Shown: positions 34,699-47,268 of the stretch, piece after piece
How positions within the stretch are numbered: the first letter of the stretch is position 1
Layout of the letters: each line of letters begins with the position of its first letter
Origin: Streptococcus pyogenes
GTDB lineage: Bacteria; Bacillota; Bacilli; Lactobacillales; Streptococcaceae
DNA: 64,000 bases
Direction of reading: 5' to 3'
NCBI RefSeq assembly: GCF_002055535.1
Contig: NZ_LN831034.1
Span: 1,798,001-1,862,000 of the forward strand
Made by a program: the position numbers and the translations under genes
Notes under the pieces: generated by a model
The model's input: the letters and a program-made list of their open reading frames with translations, nothing else
Database searches by the model: none
Told to the model about the DNA's origin: nothing

Positions 34699-34728
34699 TT
34701 GACAGAAAGCAAGTAACTTTACTACAAT
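34699..34728 (+). promoter_or_regulatory. yaaA promoter for a leaderless transcript
   Basis: TTGACA (34699-34704), an 18-base spacer and TACAAT (34723-34728) end 6 bases before the yaaA ATG, so transcription should start at or next to the start codon. Confidence 0.75.
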
Positions 34729-34734
34729 AACACT

Positions 34735-35466
34735 ATGCTAACCTTTTTAATTCCAACCGCAAAAGAAATGACGATCCCTAAGGAATCTCACCCACACCTC
34801 CTTCCACAAGACAGCCAAGCCATTTTAAAAATCATGGCAGCTATGACCACGGAGGACTTGGCCAAATCATATCGTATCAAAGAAGAGTCAGCTAAAAAAG
34901 AACAGCAACGCTGGCAAGACATGGCCTCTCAACAAAGCTTGGCTTACCCTGCCTACCAACTGTTCAATGGCCTTATGTACCGCCATATCAAGCGCGATAA
35001 GCTCACTACCCAAGAACAGGCTTACCTCACCCAGCAGGTTTACATCACCTCATCCTTTTACGGTATCATTCCCGCTAATCATCCTATCGCAGAGCACCGC
35101 CATGATTTTCACACCAGAATAAAAATTGAAGGACAAAGCCTCAAGTCTTACTGGCGGCCCTGTTATAATCAGTTTGCCAAAGAGCATCCCCAAGTGATTT
35201 CCCTTTTATCCAGTGAATTTGACGATGTCTTTTCCAAAGACTGTAAACAATTGTGGATAAGTCCCAAGTTTATGGCAGAAAAAGAGGGCCAATTCAAAAC
35301 CCATTCCACCATTTCAAAAAAGGCACGAGGTGCATTTCTCACTGCCTGTATGGAAAATAATTGCCAAACTGTTGACAGCCTTAAAAGCCTTGTCTTTGCT
35401 GGTTTTTACTACCATCCAGACCTATCAACAGATCATGAATTTGTCTATATCAAAAAAGAGGCCTAG
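34735..35466 (+). CDS. yaaA: Peroxide-stress protein YaaA
   Basis: YaaA-family (DUF328) proteins lower free iron and protect DNA from peroxide in E. coli. The protein has 243 residues. The start [12 protein letters not shown] matches the family, as do [28 protein letters not shown] and YWRPCYNQ. There is no Shine-Dalgarno sequence; instead a good promoter ends 6 bases before the ATG. The stop codon lies inside the terminator hairpin. The biochemical activity is not fixed by sequence. Confidence 0.9.
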
Positions 35467-35477
35467 GCCTCTTTTTT
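35452..35477 (+). terminator. yaaA terminator overlapping its stop codon
   Basis: The stem AAAAAGAGGC/GCCTCTTTTT closes on CTAG, with AGGCCTAGGCCT as a perfect palindrome containing the TAG stop. T6 follows. Confidence 0.88.
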
Positions 35478-35482
35478 AGTCT

Positions 35483-35630
35483 TTATTCACAATTCTACAA
35501 CTTATACACAACCTGTGGATAACTATGAGGATAATGTGGGGAAAACCAGGGAATAACAATTACTTTCTCCCCAATTCACCCTTAAAGGACCTGTTTTCAC
35601 ATGACCTTTTCAAAAAAATCATGTGGATAA
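35483..35630. promoter_or_regulatory. Cluster of four consensus DnaA boxes
   Basis: TTATTCACA (35483-35491), TTATACACA (35502-35510), TGTGGATAA (35514-35522) and TGTGGATAA (35622-35630) all match TTATNCACA on one strand or the other. The second and third face each other 3 bases apart. Two weaker look-alikes (near 35535 and 35593) lie between. The site is intergenic between converging yaaA and nrdG, so promoter control is unlikely. A DnaA titration or initiation-control locus is the simplest idea. Confidence 0.75.
35598..35625 (-). terminator. Hairpin after nrdG
   Basis: CACATGA (35598-35604) pairs with TCATGTG (35619-35625) across a 14-base T/A-rich loop. It may end the nrdG transcript, though no T-run follows on the minus strand. 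Confidence 0.35.
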
Positions 35631-35639
35631 GTCAGCTTC

Positions 35640-36254
35640 TTAAAGCAAATCCTCCCGACTAATTTGTTCAAAGGTTTGGTCCCCATCGTTTAACTTATCC
35701 CAGATAATCACTTCTTTAGCAGCCAAAGACTTTTGAACATCGATAATTCGCTGGTTAGAAGAGCCTCTAAATTGCAACATGAGGTTCTTTTTTGTGATAT
35801 CAAAACGACCATCTACCAGAATATCAATTAAGGACAGCATTTCCAGTTTGTCTGGTGTTTCAAGCATCATTTCTTCCCAAGTATAACCCGTCCAAGACCA
35901 AATATCTTTTTCTGGCAATTCACGCCGAATACGCTTAATCAGAGGAATTAAGATACCCGTATTCAAAAAGGGTTCTCCACCTAAAAGTGTCAGTCCCTGA
36001 ACATAAGGCTGTGCCAAATCCGTCATTATCTGCTCTTCAAGTTCTTGCGTATAAGGCATTCCCGCCTTAAAAGACCAAGTCGCAGCATTATAACACCCCT
36101 TGCAATGGAATAAACAACCAGACACATAAAGGGAATTACGAACCCCTTCACCATCAACAAAGTTAAAAGCCTTATAGTCAATAATCCGGCCTTGACTTAA
36201 CTCCTCTGCCTGCCATTCCTTTGGCTTAGGATTATTCCAACACTTTTCTGCCAT
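35640..36254 (-). CDS. nrdG: Anaerobic ribonucleotide reductase activating protein NrdG
   Basis: NrdG is a radical-SAM enzyme that installs the glycyl radical on NrdD in anoxia. It has 204 residues from the ATG at 36254. The iron-sulfur motif CxxxCxxC appears as SGCLFHCKGCYN near residues 46-57, and LTLLGGEPFLN follows near 90. The ATG overlaps the upstream TGA (TGATG), so it is translationally coupled to the acetyltransferase; a GTG one codon earlier is possible. It is last in the operon of the 48-residue protein, an oxidoreductase and a GNAT. Confidence 0.95.
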   Translation of the reverse strand: MAEKCWNNPKPKEWQAEELSQGRIIDYKAFNFVDGEGVRNSLYVSGCLFHCKGCYNAATWSFKAGMPYTQELEEQIMTDLAQPYVQGLTLLGGEPFLNTGILIPLIKRIRRELPEKDIWSWTGYTWEEMMLETPDKLEMLSLIDILVDGRFDITKKNLMLQFRGSSNQRIIDVQKSLAAKEVIIWDKLNDGDQTFEQISREDLL

Positions 36255-36763
36255 CACTTATCGCCTCTTTGTTCTTCAATCCAATAACGTTCCGTTCCAC
36301 CTCGACTATCTTCCAAGATACCGCCGTTAGCCACAATAACTGCTCGGCTTGCAACATTAGTCTCATCACAAGTTACCAAAATTGTCGTGATATTCTTGGA
36401 AATCGCATAGCTGACAGCTTGTTTAAGCATCTCCTTGGCATAACCTTTCCCACGCTGGCTGGGACGGACAGAGTAACCAATATGCCCACCTTTTTCAAGT
36501 AATCTCTCATTTAACCGTAAACGAAGATTTAAGAACCCGATAGCCTGACTTCTCTCATCAAATGCGACGTATTGAATAGCAGGCACTCCTTGACTGGACA
36601 AACCCATTTCCTGTCGCAAGGAATCTTCCAACCATGTTTCATAGTTAAAGTCATTGACGTTAAAATGCCATAACCCATCTGTAGCACTTTTCTGCTCTAA
36701 AAATTCGTTAATCATTGACAATACAGCGTCTTTATCTTTTAAAGTCGGTCGTCTTATTTCCAT
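36254..36763 (-). CDS. GNAT-family N-acetyltransferase
   Basis: This is a 169-residue acetyl-CoA-dependent transferase. The CoA-binding motif A is VRPSQRGKGYAKEML near 105-119, with ILVTCDETNVASRAVIVANGG following as motif B. The substrate is unknown. Its stop overlaps the nrdG start, and it begins 9 bases after the oxidoreductase stop, so all three are one transcript. Whether it works with the reductase system is unclear. Confidence 0.85.
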   Translation of the reverse strand: MEIRRPTLKDKDAVLSMINEFLEQKSATDGLWHFNVNDFNYETWLEDSLRQEMGLSSQGVPAIQYVAFDERSQAIGFLNLRLRLNERLLEKGGHIGYSVRPSQRGKGYAKEMLKQAVSYAISKNITTILVTCDETNVASRAVIVANGGILEDSRGGTERYWIEEQRGDK

Positions 36764-38063: not shown

Positions 38064-40262
38064 TTATAGGCCTGGGTATTTTATAGTAGAACCATTCATA
38101 TGTTTTACACGCGCAGAGATTTCCTTATGGCGACCGTTAACCATTGGGCGGGCCTGAGGATTCCCCAAGTAACCACATGTACGTTTGACCACATCAACTG
38201 TTTTAGGGTCATTATTGCCACAGTTTGGGCAAGTAAAACCACGTTCTGTTGGGGTAAAATCGCCTTCAAATTGGCAATTATAGCATTTATCAATAGGCGT
38301 ATTGGTTCCCAAATACCCCACACGATCATAAGCATAGTCCCAAACCGCTTCCAAGGCCTTTGGATTTTGTTGCAAAACAGGATACTCACAGTAGTGGATA
38401 AAACCACCTGAAGCACCTGCTTCTGGATAATCTTTTTCAAAATCTAATTTTTCAAAAGGTGTCGGACTCTTACGCACATCATAGTGAAAAGAATTTGTAT
38501 AGTATTCTTTATCCGTAATATCTGTCACAATGCCAAATTTTTCCGTATCTAAACGACAAAAGCGATCTGTCAAACTTTCTGATGGAGTCGAATAAACAGA
38601 GAAATGATAACCATATTCATCTGACCAATCCTCACAGGCCTGTTTCATTGCCTTGACAATTGACAAGGTAAAAGCTTTAGCATCTGGATTACCTTCCCAT
38701 TGACCACCATAAAAAACAGACGCCACTTCATAAAGACCAATATAGCCAAGAGAGACTGTTGCACGACGATTCTTAAAGAGATCATTTACATTCCCTGTCT
38801 TCTCCAAACGCTTTCCAAAAGCACCATATTGATAAAGAATAGGAGCATTTGCTGGTTTTGCTTCTGTGACACGTTCGACACGATAAATTAAAGCATCCTT
38901 ACTAATTAGCATCCTCTCATTAAACAGCTCCCAAAACTTATCCATATCGCCATTTGATTCCATGGCAATGCGAGGTAAATTGAGGGTGACAACCCCAAGA
39001 TTCATACGGCCTGAGGTCACATCTTGCCCATTTTCATCTTTCCAGCCTTGAAGGAAAGAGCGGCATCCCATTGGAGATTTGAAAGATCCTGTCAAATCAA
39101 TAATTTTATCATAAGATAACATATCCGGGTACATCCGCTTAGTCGCACATTCTAAAGCCAAAGTCTTAATATCATAGTTTGGTGAATCTGGTTCTAAATT
39201 CAAGCCACGTTTAACCGTGAAAATTAATTTAGGGAAAATAGCCGTGCGATGTTCACTACCAAGACCATTAATCCGAATGGTCAAAATAGCTTTTTGAATC
39301 TCACGTTCAAACCAAGACGTCCCCAAACCAAATCCTAAAGAAGTAAATGGTGTTTGACCATTAGACGTAAAGAGCGTATTAATTTCATACTCCAAAGACT
39401 GCATCGCATCATAAATATCTTTTTGAGTCTTTTCAAAAGCATAGCTTTCTCTCTTAGTCTCAACGATCCATTTCTTAGCATCAGCCATATGTTTTTTAAA
39501 GTTAAGCTCCGCATATGGGGCTAAAAACTCGTCAATGCGATCAGCTGTGCATCCGCCGTACTGACTTGATGCTACATTCGCAATAATCTGTGAGATCTGA
39601 GCTGTTGCAGTTTGAATAGACTTGGGACTTTCCACTTCAGCATTACCAATTTTAAAGCCATTGGCTAACATGCCCTTAAAGTCAATTAAACAGCAGTTCG
39701 TCATCGGTGTATAAGGACTGTAATCCAAATCATGGTAATGGATATCTCCTTTTTGATGAGCATTAGCAACATGCGAAGGTAACATTTTTAAACCAATCGA
39801 TTTCCCTACGATTCCAGCAGTTAAATCTCGTTGAGTATTAAAAACATCGCTATCTTTGTTAGCATTTTCATTAACAACTGTTTGATCTTTATTAATTAAT
39901 TTATCAATAGAAAAATTGATATCTGTTGCTTGTGAACGTGCAAAGTCACGCTGAGTACGATAATTAATGTATTCTTTTGCAATAGCATATTCATTAGCTG
40001 CAAGAAGCTTATGCTCTACAATATTTTGGATTTCATAAATTTTGATATTAGTTGGAAAACGCTCAATAATTTCTGCTATAATGCGATCAGAAATAGCCTC
40101 TAATTTAGCCTCAACAAGTGGCGACATCCGAGTTACTTTCATGCTTGCTTTTAATAAAGCACTATAGATTTTTGTACTATCAAAATTAACAAGGCGACCA
40201 TCTCGTTTAATCACTTTAATATCAGGTTGAACAGTCACCTTGTCTTCTTCTAAACTTACCAT
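38064..40262 (-). CDS. nrdD: Anaerobic ribonucleoside-triphosphate reductase NrdD
   Basis: This class III reductase makes dNTPs without oxygen, using a glycyl radical and formate. It has 732 residues. The N-terminal ATP-cone (about 15-105, VIKRDGRLVNFDSTKI) is the allosteric site. The radical Gly is G697 in KRTCGYLGNPQARPMVNG. A four-Cys zinc site is formed by CYNCQFEGDF and FTCPNCGNN near 662-683. AGGAGA precedes the ATG. NrdR boxes overlie the promoter. It is separated from nrdG by three other genes and a terminator, unlike the adjacent pair in many bacteria. Confidence 0.97.
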   Translation of the reverse strand: MVSLEEDKVTVQPDIKVIKRDGRLVNFDSTKIYSALLKASMKVTRMSPLVEAKLEAISDRIIAEIIERFPTNIKIYEIQNIVEHKLLAANEYAIAKEYINYRTQRDFARSQATDINFSIDKLINKDQTVVNENANKDSDVFNTQRDLTAGIVGKSIGLKMLPSHVANAHQKGDIHYHDLDYSPYTPMTNCCLIDFKGMLANGFKIGNAEVESPKSIQTATAQISQIIANVASSQYGGCTADRIDEFLAPYAELNFKKHMADAKKWIVETKRESYAFEKTQKDIYDAMQSLEYEINTLFTSNGQTPFTSLGFGLGTSWFEREIQKAILTIRINGLGSEHRTAIFPKLIFTVKRGLNLEPDSPNYDIKTLALECATKRMYPDMLSYDKIIDLTGSFKSPMGCRSFLQGWKDENGQDVTSGRMNLGVVTLNLPRIAMESNGDMDKFWELFNERMLISKDALIYRVERVTEAKPANAPILYQYGAFGKRLEKTGNVNDLFKNRRATVSLGYIGLYEVASVFYGGQWEGNPDAKAFTLSIVKAMKQACEDWSDEYGYHFSVYSTPSESLTDRFCRLDTEKFGIVTDITDKEYYTNSFHYDVRKSPTPFEKLDFEKDYPEAGASGGFIHYCEYPVLQQNPKALEAVWDYAYDRVGYLGTNTPIDKCYNCQFEGDFTPTERGFTCPNCGNNDPKTVDVVKRTCGYLGNPQARPMVNGRHKEISARVKHMNGSTIKYPGL

Positions 40263-46709: not shown

Positions 46710-47260
46710 CTATTGAAAACACAAGCCTCTTCATGGTCATTTACCAGACCCGATGCTTGCATAAAAGAATAAACCGTTGTAGGCCCTAAAAATTTAAATC
46801 CTCTTTTCTTTAAATCCTTAGCTAAGCGAATAGATAATTCTGTTTGAGCAGGAACAAGATTCTCTTGATTGACAAGGTTGTTAATTGGCTTTCCCCCAAC
46901 AAAATTCCAGAGATAAGTTGAAAAACTACCAAACTCTTTTTGAATTTTCTGTACTGCGATAGCGTTGTTGACAGTTGCTGCTAGCTTTAGCTTGTGGCGG
47001 ATAATGGATGGATTCTCTAAAGCATCAGCCATTTCCTCCGAGGTAAAGGTTGCAACCGATGCAATGTCGTAATGATGAAAAACAGTTCTGAAAGCTTGGC
47101 GTTTTTTCAAAACAGTCAGCCAGGATAAGCCTGACTGGTAACTTTCAAGGCACAGCAATTCAAAAAAATCTCTATCATCATCCAGGGGTTGACCCCATTC
47201 TAAATCGTGGTAATCACAGTAAAGCTGGTTATCCTTAGGAACCCATGAGCAACGTTTCAT
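46700..47260 (-). CDS. tag: DNA-3-methyladenine glycosylase I
   Basis: Tag removes 3-methyladenine from alkylated DNA. It has 186 residues. The zinc-binding N-terminus MKRCSWVP, the family signature YHDLEWGQP, and the C-terminal NDHEEACVF (His and Cys ligands) are all present. The ATG at 47260 is chosen with GGGTAGG 8 bases upstream; a GTG three codons earlier would overlap that ribosome site. It follows ruvA directly, in the mutL-transporter-ruvA-tag series. A parS-like palindrome overlaps the start codon. Confidence 0.94.
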   Translation of the reverse strand: MKRCSWVPKDNQLYCDYHDLEWGQPLDDDRDFFELLCLESYQSGLSWLTVLKKRQAFRTVFHHYDIASVATFTSEEMADALENPSIIRHKLKLAATVNNAIAVQKIQKEFGSFSTYLWNFVGGKPINNLVNQENLVPAQTELSIRLAKDLKKRGFKFLGPTTVYSFMQASGLVNDHEEACVFNRIF

Positions 47261-47268
47261 GTGAAACA
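47253..47268. promoter_or_regulatory. parS-like site over the tag start codon
   Basis: The minus strand reads TGTTTCACATGAAACG. The ParB/Spo0J site consensus is TGTTTCACGTGAAACA, so 14 of 16 bases match, with one change in the 14-base core. Confidence 0.65.

Follow-up and report, generated by a model that had tools for sequence, protein, structure and literature searches.

The yaaA–nrdG locus and its DnaA boxes

The window analysed here is a 64,000-nucleotide stretch of Streptococcus pyogenes DNA, bases 1,798,001-1,862,000 of one contig of 1,914,862 bp on which the start of dnaA is base 1. In this window yaaA (+) and nrdG (−) converge, as an earlier note on this DNA had stated, and their 3′ ends enclose a gap of 173 bp (36% GC). 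The name nrdG rests on that note and on nrdD (PF13597), which lies nearby at 38064-40262. The features of the locus are as follows, with coordinates of the window:

34735..35466, + strand, yaaA (peroxide stress protein YaaA); Pfam PF03883, E 3e-51
35252..35260, − strand, yaaA-internal box, TTATCCACA; exact match within the yaaA coding sequence
35452..35477, symmetric, terminator-like hairpin at the junction of yaaA and the boxes; a pattern match only, one found against 0.4 expected
35483..35491, + strand, box IV, TTATTCACA; exact match, starting 19 bp from the start of box I
35502..35510, + strand, box I, TTATACACA; exact match, inverted relative to box II with a 3-bp spacer
35514..35522, − strand, box II, TTATCCACA; exact match, perfect consensus
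35526..35534, − strand, box III, TTATCCTCA; degenerate, one mismatch, oriented as box II with a 3-bp spacer
35622..35630, − strand, distal box, TTATCCACA; exact match, close to the 3′ end of nrdG
35640..36257, − strand, nrdG (anaerobic ribonucleotide reductase activase); Fer4_12 and radical SAM domains

An exact-match scan of the window finds the DnaA box TTATNCACA, a likely binding site for the replication initiator DnaA, four times in the gap, at 35483 (+), 35502 (+), 35514 (−) and 35622 (−). The earlier note had read four such sites within 35483-35630, two of them as an inverted pair 3 bases apart (35502/35514), and both readings are borne out; absent from it were the exact box inside yaaA (35252-35260, −) and the conserved one-mismatch box III (35526-35534, −). 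It had expected one site per about 33 kb; the genome as a whole (1.91 Mb) has 83 exact boxes, one in about every 23 kb. The window holds six exact boxes against 3.3 expected from shuffles, and since 9 of 100 shuffles reach six, the count alone is unremarkable. It is the clustering that sets the boxes of the gap apart: four boxes within 140 bp did not occur in any of 20000 simulations with 83 uniformly placed sites, and the analytic chance expectation for a cluster this tight is about 3e-6 for 83 sites. Elsewhere in the genome, neighbouring boxes less than 400 bp apart form three pairs only (37, 48 and 301 bp). The gap thus carries dense consensus DnaA boxes outside oriC, as expected of an extra-oriC DnaA-box cluster (DBC). 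Two other kinds of element, a structured RNA and a promoter, were considered for the locus and dropped: bases 34700-36300 give no Rfam match at gathering score, and one promoter-like match was found against 1.2 expected.

Conservation and geometry of the three-box module

Read on the minus strand, the core of the cluster consists of box III (TTATCCTCA), 3 bp, box II (TTATCCACA), 3 bp and the inverted box I (TTATACACA). Among the best 80 of 173 named streptococcal nrdG loci (998,813 bases), this three-box module lies downstream of nrdG at a score of at least 21/24 in 15 loci, including those of S. castoreus, equinus, didelphis, penaeicida, ictaluri, caballi, bovimastitidis, halichoeri, catagoni, phocae, uberis and agalactiae, and at that score it occurs at no other place in those 998,813 bases. 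In the same 80 loci and at the same score, it is absent downstream of nrdG in S. sanguinis, mitis, anginosus, cristatus and parasanguinis. The earlier note had made its reading depend on conservation of the boxes in related genomes; at the scope of one genome per species, conservation is found in part of the genus.

An alignment of 14 nrdG–yaaA gaps, the window and 13 relatives picked because their adjoining yaaA carries the internal box, shows where the conservation lies. Box II is invariant in 9/9 columns in all 14 gaps. Boxes I and III are each invariant in 7/9 columns, box I being present with at most one mismatch in 14/14 gaps and box III in 12/14. Box IV is less constant (3/9 columns; at most one mismatch in 13/14), and the distal box is poorly conserved (0/9 columns; present in 5/14). 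The gap is otherwise divergent, with 27 of 77 gap-free columns invariant overall. In the corresponding 14-sequence codon alignment of yaaA, the internal box TGTGGATAAGT is the longest invariant run (11 bases, the next being 8), third codon positions being 6% invariant overall; this is weaker than an unbiased test because the 13 relatives were selected for carrying that very box. The amino acids that it encodes are not retained in orthologues without the box. In a survey of 30 yaaA rows from 29 distinct genomes (L112 and L183 being the same), TGTGGATAAGT occurs in 15, and the 15 rows without it include the module-bearing L012, L016, L018 and L061. Multiple exact DnaA boxes within yaaA were also seen in two loci without the three-box module at 21/24, four in S. 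vestibularis (L029) and five in Streptococcus sp. DD12 (L054).

To examine the spacing of box III, 15 inverted pairs located away from the dnaA promoter region were taken as representatives, the one in G110 being only 2.3 kb from dnaA. The side of box III had first been picked by score, and it was retested at every distance from 9 to 40 on both sides. A further box of at least 7/8 stands at start distance 12 in 6/15 pairs, while the other 31 distances together give five; the remaining 9/15 pairs have no distance-12 box at this threshold, and at four oriC pairs the box at this distance scores 2-4 of 8. The sequence of box III varies by locus, being TTATCCTCA at nrdG, TTGTTCACA at the fucosidase and GH2 loci and TTAACCACA in the folate cyclo-ligase gene.

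Distribution and position in Streptococcus

An inverted pair of exact boxes with a spacer of 0-30 bp is present in at least 101 of 118 Streptococcus genomes. Positions were analysed in the 37 single-contig genomes of this set. Pairs with the exact 3-bp spacer and more than 5 kb from dnaA number 35, in 25/37 genomes; all lie within 225 kb of dnaA, 33 of them upstream and 29 at -42 to -103 kb. With up to three mismatches allowed, the three-box module gives 39 matches, some overlapping, likewise in 25/37 genomes, and the reversed control gives none in the 37. Upstream of dnaA lie 38 of the 39, at -2 to -348 kb; the sole match on the other arm is the folate cyclo-ligase copy of G074. In the 17 genomes matched at the nrdG, fucosidase or GH2 locus the module is at -72 to -103 kb, in 13 of them at -72 to -83 kb, and some copies are farther from dnaA (-150 to -350 kb). 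The neighbourhoods are as follows, with distances from dnaA:

-75 to -103 kb, nrdG neighbourhood
-74 to -101 kb, alpha-L-fucosidase neighbourhood
-72 to -83 kb, inside the GH2 gene adjoining the fucosidase gene
-47 kb, GH92 and amino-acid permease neighbourhood
-152 to -183 kb, inside the folate cyclo-ligase gene
-270 to -348 kb, inside cysS
-221 and -292 kb, inside a recD2-like gene
-2.3 kb in G014, G022 and G109, and -43 kb in G109, matches at three mismatches only
-132 kb in G101, beside cinA, match at three mismatches only

Copies embedded in coding genes were seen in cysS in three genomes (L241-L243; G022, G109 and G014) and in the folate cyclo-ligase gene (L173).

The fucosidase and GH2 copies may represent one placement. 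The nrdG copy is oriented opposite to the fucosidase copies in 6/7 genomes, and in G095 overlapping matches run both ways. Counted from gene neighbourhoods alone, about six independent placements would have arisen, confined to the upstream side and to 28% of the arm, which is unlikely by chance, with the caveat that this limit was set post hoc. Part of the genus is without the module: no match is found in 12/37 genomes at up to three mismatches, nor, among the matches listed, in 17 of the 27 Streptococcus genomes of the class-level search at up to two.

Other arrangements of boxes were searched for as well. Exact boxes paired on the same strand within 30 bp are limited to 9/37 single-contig genomes (reversed control, one match, in G113), and this search revealed no further dense clusters in the module-less ones. 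A relaxed inverted pair (TTWT) was sought in the S. pyogenes genome itself and in those 12 of the 37 genomes where no exact 3-bp pair lies beyond 5 kb from dnaA. Of these 12, 11 have one, always within about 3.1 kb of dnaA; G071 has none. Other short spacers are seen in exact pairs at -50, -251 and +173 kb (4 bp) and at +570 kb (9 bp), so inverted pairs are not all origin-proximal. The 4-bp pairs of G112 (L143, +173 kb) and G053 (L145, -251 kb) are at the 3′ end of a recD2-like gene.

These placements bear on two readings of the cluster. One is that DnaA bound in the gap acts on local transcription, as a regulator of yaaA and nrdDG, which converge there, or as a roadblock. A role of DnaA as a transcription factor is established (PMC4447404), and the site of the module, flanked by two 3′ ends and adjoining a terminator-like hairpin, would suit this. 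In other genomes, however, the module stands in other gene settings and inside coding genes, and nrdG is present in 118/118 genomes, yet 65 of the best 80 of 173 nrdG loci have no module at 21/24 or better; we therefore give this reading little credence. The same settings speak against a direct link with nrdG or anaerobic metabolism. The earlier note had found the neighbouring anaerobic reductase suggestive; elsewhere the module lies by fucosidase or GH92 genes, with nrdG located apart, or inside GH2, cysS, folate cyclo-ligase and recD2-like genes, and nrdG appears to be an incidental neighbour because the genes that the module adjoins or occupies differ between genomes.

The other reading is that the cluster is a neutral accident retained by descent. 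Some Streptococcus genomes are without the module, as this reading would allow. Against it stand the small chance expectation given above, the retention of box columns while spacers diverge, and the recurrence of an identical geometry at several unrelated loci with differing box-III sequences. An accident of this kind is hardly credible, and we take the yaaA–nrdG cluster to be, with high probability, a genuine DnaA module under selection.

Occurrence outside the genus and relation to oriC

Within the family of Streptococcus, the exact 3-bp pair was found in 11 of 14 Streptococcus genomes, oriC and other sites being pooled, and in none of 45 other members. A class-level search at up to two mismatches gave the three-box module in at least 152 of 398 genomes, and its control gave none. 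Among the matches listed, 10/27 Streptococcus genomes and 1/12 others of the order have it, and the remainder are more distant. When 20 loci of other Bacilli, all of one family, were fetched, the module lay within 3 kb of dnaA in 16, and the remaining four were interrupted by a contig end. From this adjacency to dnaA, the module therefore appears to be of an origin type. Two copies each are present in three genomes from a different family, G319, G242 and G374: the first precedes the dnaA match by about 186 bp, and the second is located at +101.5, +103.2 and +102.3 kb, respectively. The second copy adjoins a deaminase-like gene in G319 (L245; Pfam PF14437 and PF00383) and G242 (L246). Proximity to oriC does not hold throughout the class, because modules 480-720 kb from dnaA occur (G355, G527, G195 and G398). 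Those of G355 and G527 (family f27) are at about 520-720 kb, and none is beside dnaA at up to two mismatches in these two genomes.

The yaaA–nrdG module itself is 81.4 kb upstream of dnaA, away from the dnaA/dnaN neighbourhood that would mark it as oriC, and the oriC of the same genome scores 18/24 for the three-box module. It shares with the oriC of other Bacilli the three boxes spaced by 3 and 3 bp, and differs in its distance of 81 kb and in a gap without an exact DnaA-trio string. Its origin-type box geometry would suit a standby or relic origin of replication. No match to any of six exact DnaA-trio-like strings was found in the yaaA–nrdG gap, whereas the dnaA–dnaN gap carries a CTACTACTACTA run; we regard such an origin as very improbable.

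Comparison with DARS, datA and the Bacillus subtilis clusters

The earlier note had drawn analogies with DARS and datA of E. coli and with the DnaA-box clusters of Bacillus. DARS1, which we take to lie between bioD and uvrB, and DARS2 were compared through their cores in E. coli MG1655, DARS2 being located via primer text in PMC4585315. In both, the start distances are 14 (I-II) and 12 (II-III), with an inverted spacer of 5 bp. The yaaA–nrdG module has the three boxes of such a core in matching order and orientation, I and II opposed and III beside II at a start distance of 12 bp, but its spacers are 3 and 3 bp where those of DARS are 3 and 5 bp. A search with DARS spacing gave one match in 37 genomes (G052, two mismatches). 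DARS membership was accordingly demoted to a rival reading after this spacing control and after the module had been found beside dnaA in other Bacilli; it is not supported by the sequence. Borne out from the note are a conserved DnaA-box cluster between two 3′ ends and, by description, its comparability with the Bacillus clusters.

The rival reading is that the module switches the nucleotide bound to DnaA, either stripping ADP as DARS does or promoting ATP hydrolysis as datA does. It draws on the DARS-like arrangement, with a degenerate box III 12 bp from box II and an inverted box I; the opposed boxes I and II of DARS drive the head-to-head contact of DnaA that releases ADP (PMC8682772). A spacer of 3 bp instead of 5 bp should, however, rotate the two DnaA molecules differently with respect to each other, DARS spacing is nearly absent from the 37 genomes, the 3-3 module adjoins dnaA in other Bacilli, and a reactivator copied right after initiation would be expected to favour re-initiation. 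A nucleotide switch is thus unlikely, if the foremost rival. As for datA, it resembles the module by description, both being clusters of DnaA boxes in non-coding DNA that may act negatively; datA requires an IHF site between its boxes (PMC5835720).

The DBCs of B. subtilis, again likened by description, are DnaA boxes clustered outside oriC; the streptococcal module differs in its fixed three-box geometry, in often being one site per genome and in lying on one side of dnaA. Going by the title of a 2012 study by Okumura, the B. subtilis clusters are reportedly oriC-proximal. Deletion of six extra-oriC clusters in B. subtilis leads to early initiation (PMC13220808; PMC5295017), and an otherwise wild-type strain tolerates about 10-fold more DnaA without over-initiation (PMC13220808), which counts against simple titration in that species; these two reviews describe the effects of the clusters and of DnaA overproduction in B. 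subtilis as weak.

A possible role in the control of initiation

Similar side and distance with differing genes suggest that the module contributes to limiting the frequency of replication starts. Given its boxes, geometry, conservation and position, binding and oligomerisation of DnaA, titration and an effect on initiation can be proposed. An oriC-type assembly module would operate outside the origin, in the yaaA–nrdG gap: DnaA would bind the strong inverted pair II-I and extend from it, head-to-tail, over box IV and the weak box III; it may also bridge to the yaaA-internal and distal boxes, and each module copy would in this way hold several DnaA molecules. The site would be copied soon after initiation and the sink doubled early in the cycle, as follows from the initiator titration model (PMC5835720), leaving less free active DnaA and hindering re-initiation. 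An origin-proximal DnaA sink damping re-initiation, by titration or another negative control, as for the B. subtilis clusters, is favoured because of the oriC-proximal position and because other Bacilli carry the module next to dnaA; our confidence in it, slightly lowered by the weak effects that the reviews report in B. subtilis, is evenly balanced. Counting against it are the streptococcal genomes without the module, the copies farther out and the opposed orientations of the nrdG and fucosidase copies.

To our knowledge, little is known of DnaA control in streptococci beyond YabA and CcrZ. Both are proteins that control streptococcal DnaA (PMC8387234), and a 2026 review (PMC13220808) calls it unknown whether the nucleotide state of DnaA is controlled in B. 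subtilis. The earlier note knew of no such site in streptococci, and a literature search at the level of titles and abstracts, with subscription journals mostly outside its coverage, likewise found no description of streptococcal DnaA-box clusters. A bolder proposal is that the module acts on the nucleotide state of DnaA and that selection acts on how far from oriC and on which side of it the module lies, with the adjoining genes differing between lineages; it would then be a Gram-positive counterpart of DARS or datA derived from a Bacilli origin module. We consider this unlikely. The module is short, predictable and present in many species at a similar place relative to the origin, which makes it testable whether origin distance itself is selected and whether this arrangement of boxes titrates DnaA or alters its nucleotide state.

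The one-sided placement upstream of dnaA would also fit a module that organises the origin region spatially, with DnaA anchoring DNA near oriC, or the segregation machinery, rather than setting initiation. A weak parS-like site 12 kb off would agree with this, but that site has two mismatches, and we regard a spatial role as improbable. The site occupies 47253-47268 of the window and was scored against TGTTNCACGTGAAACA. At up to three mismatches, and with the palindrome counted on both strands, the window has seven parS-like matches against 2.1 expected, a number that 1 of 100 shuffles reaches.
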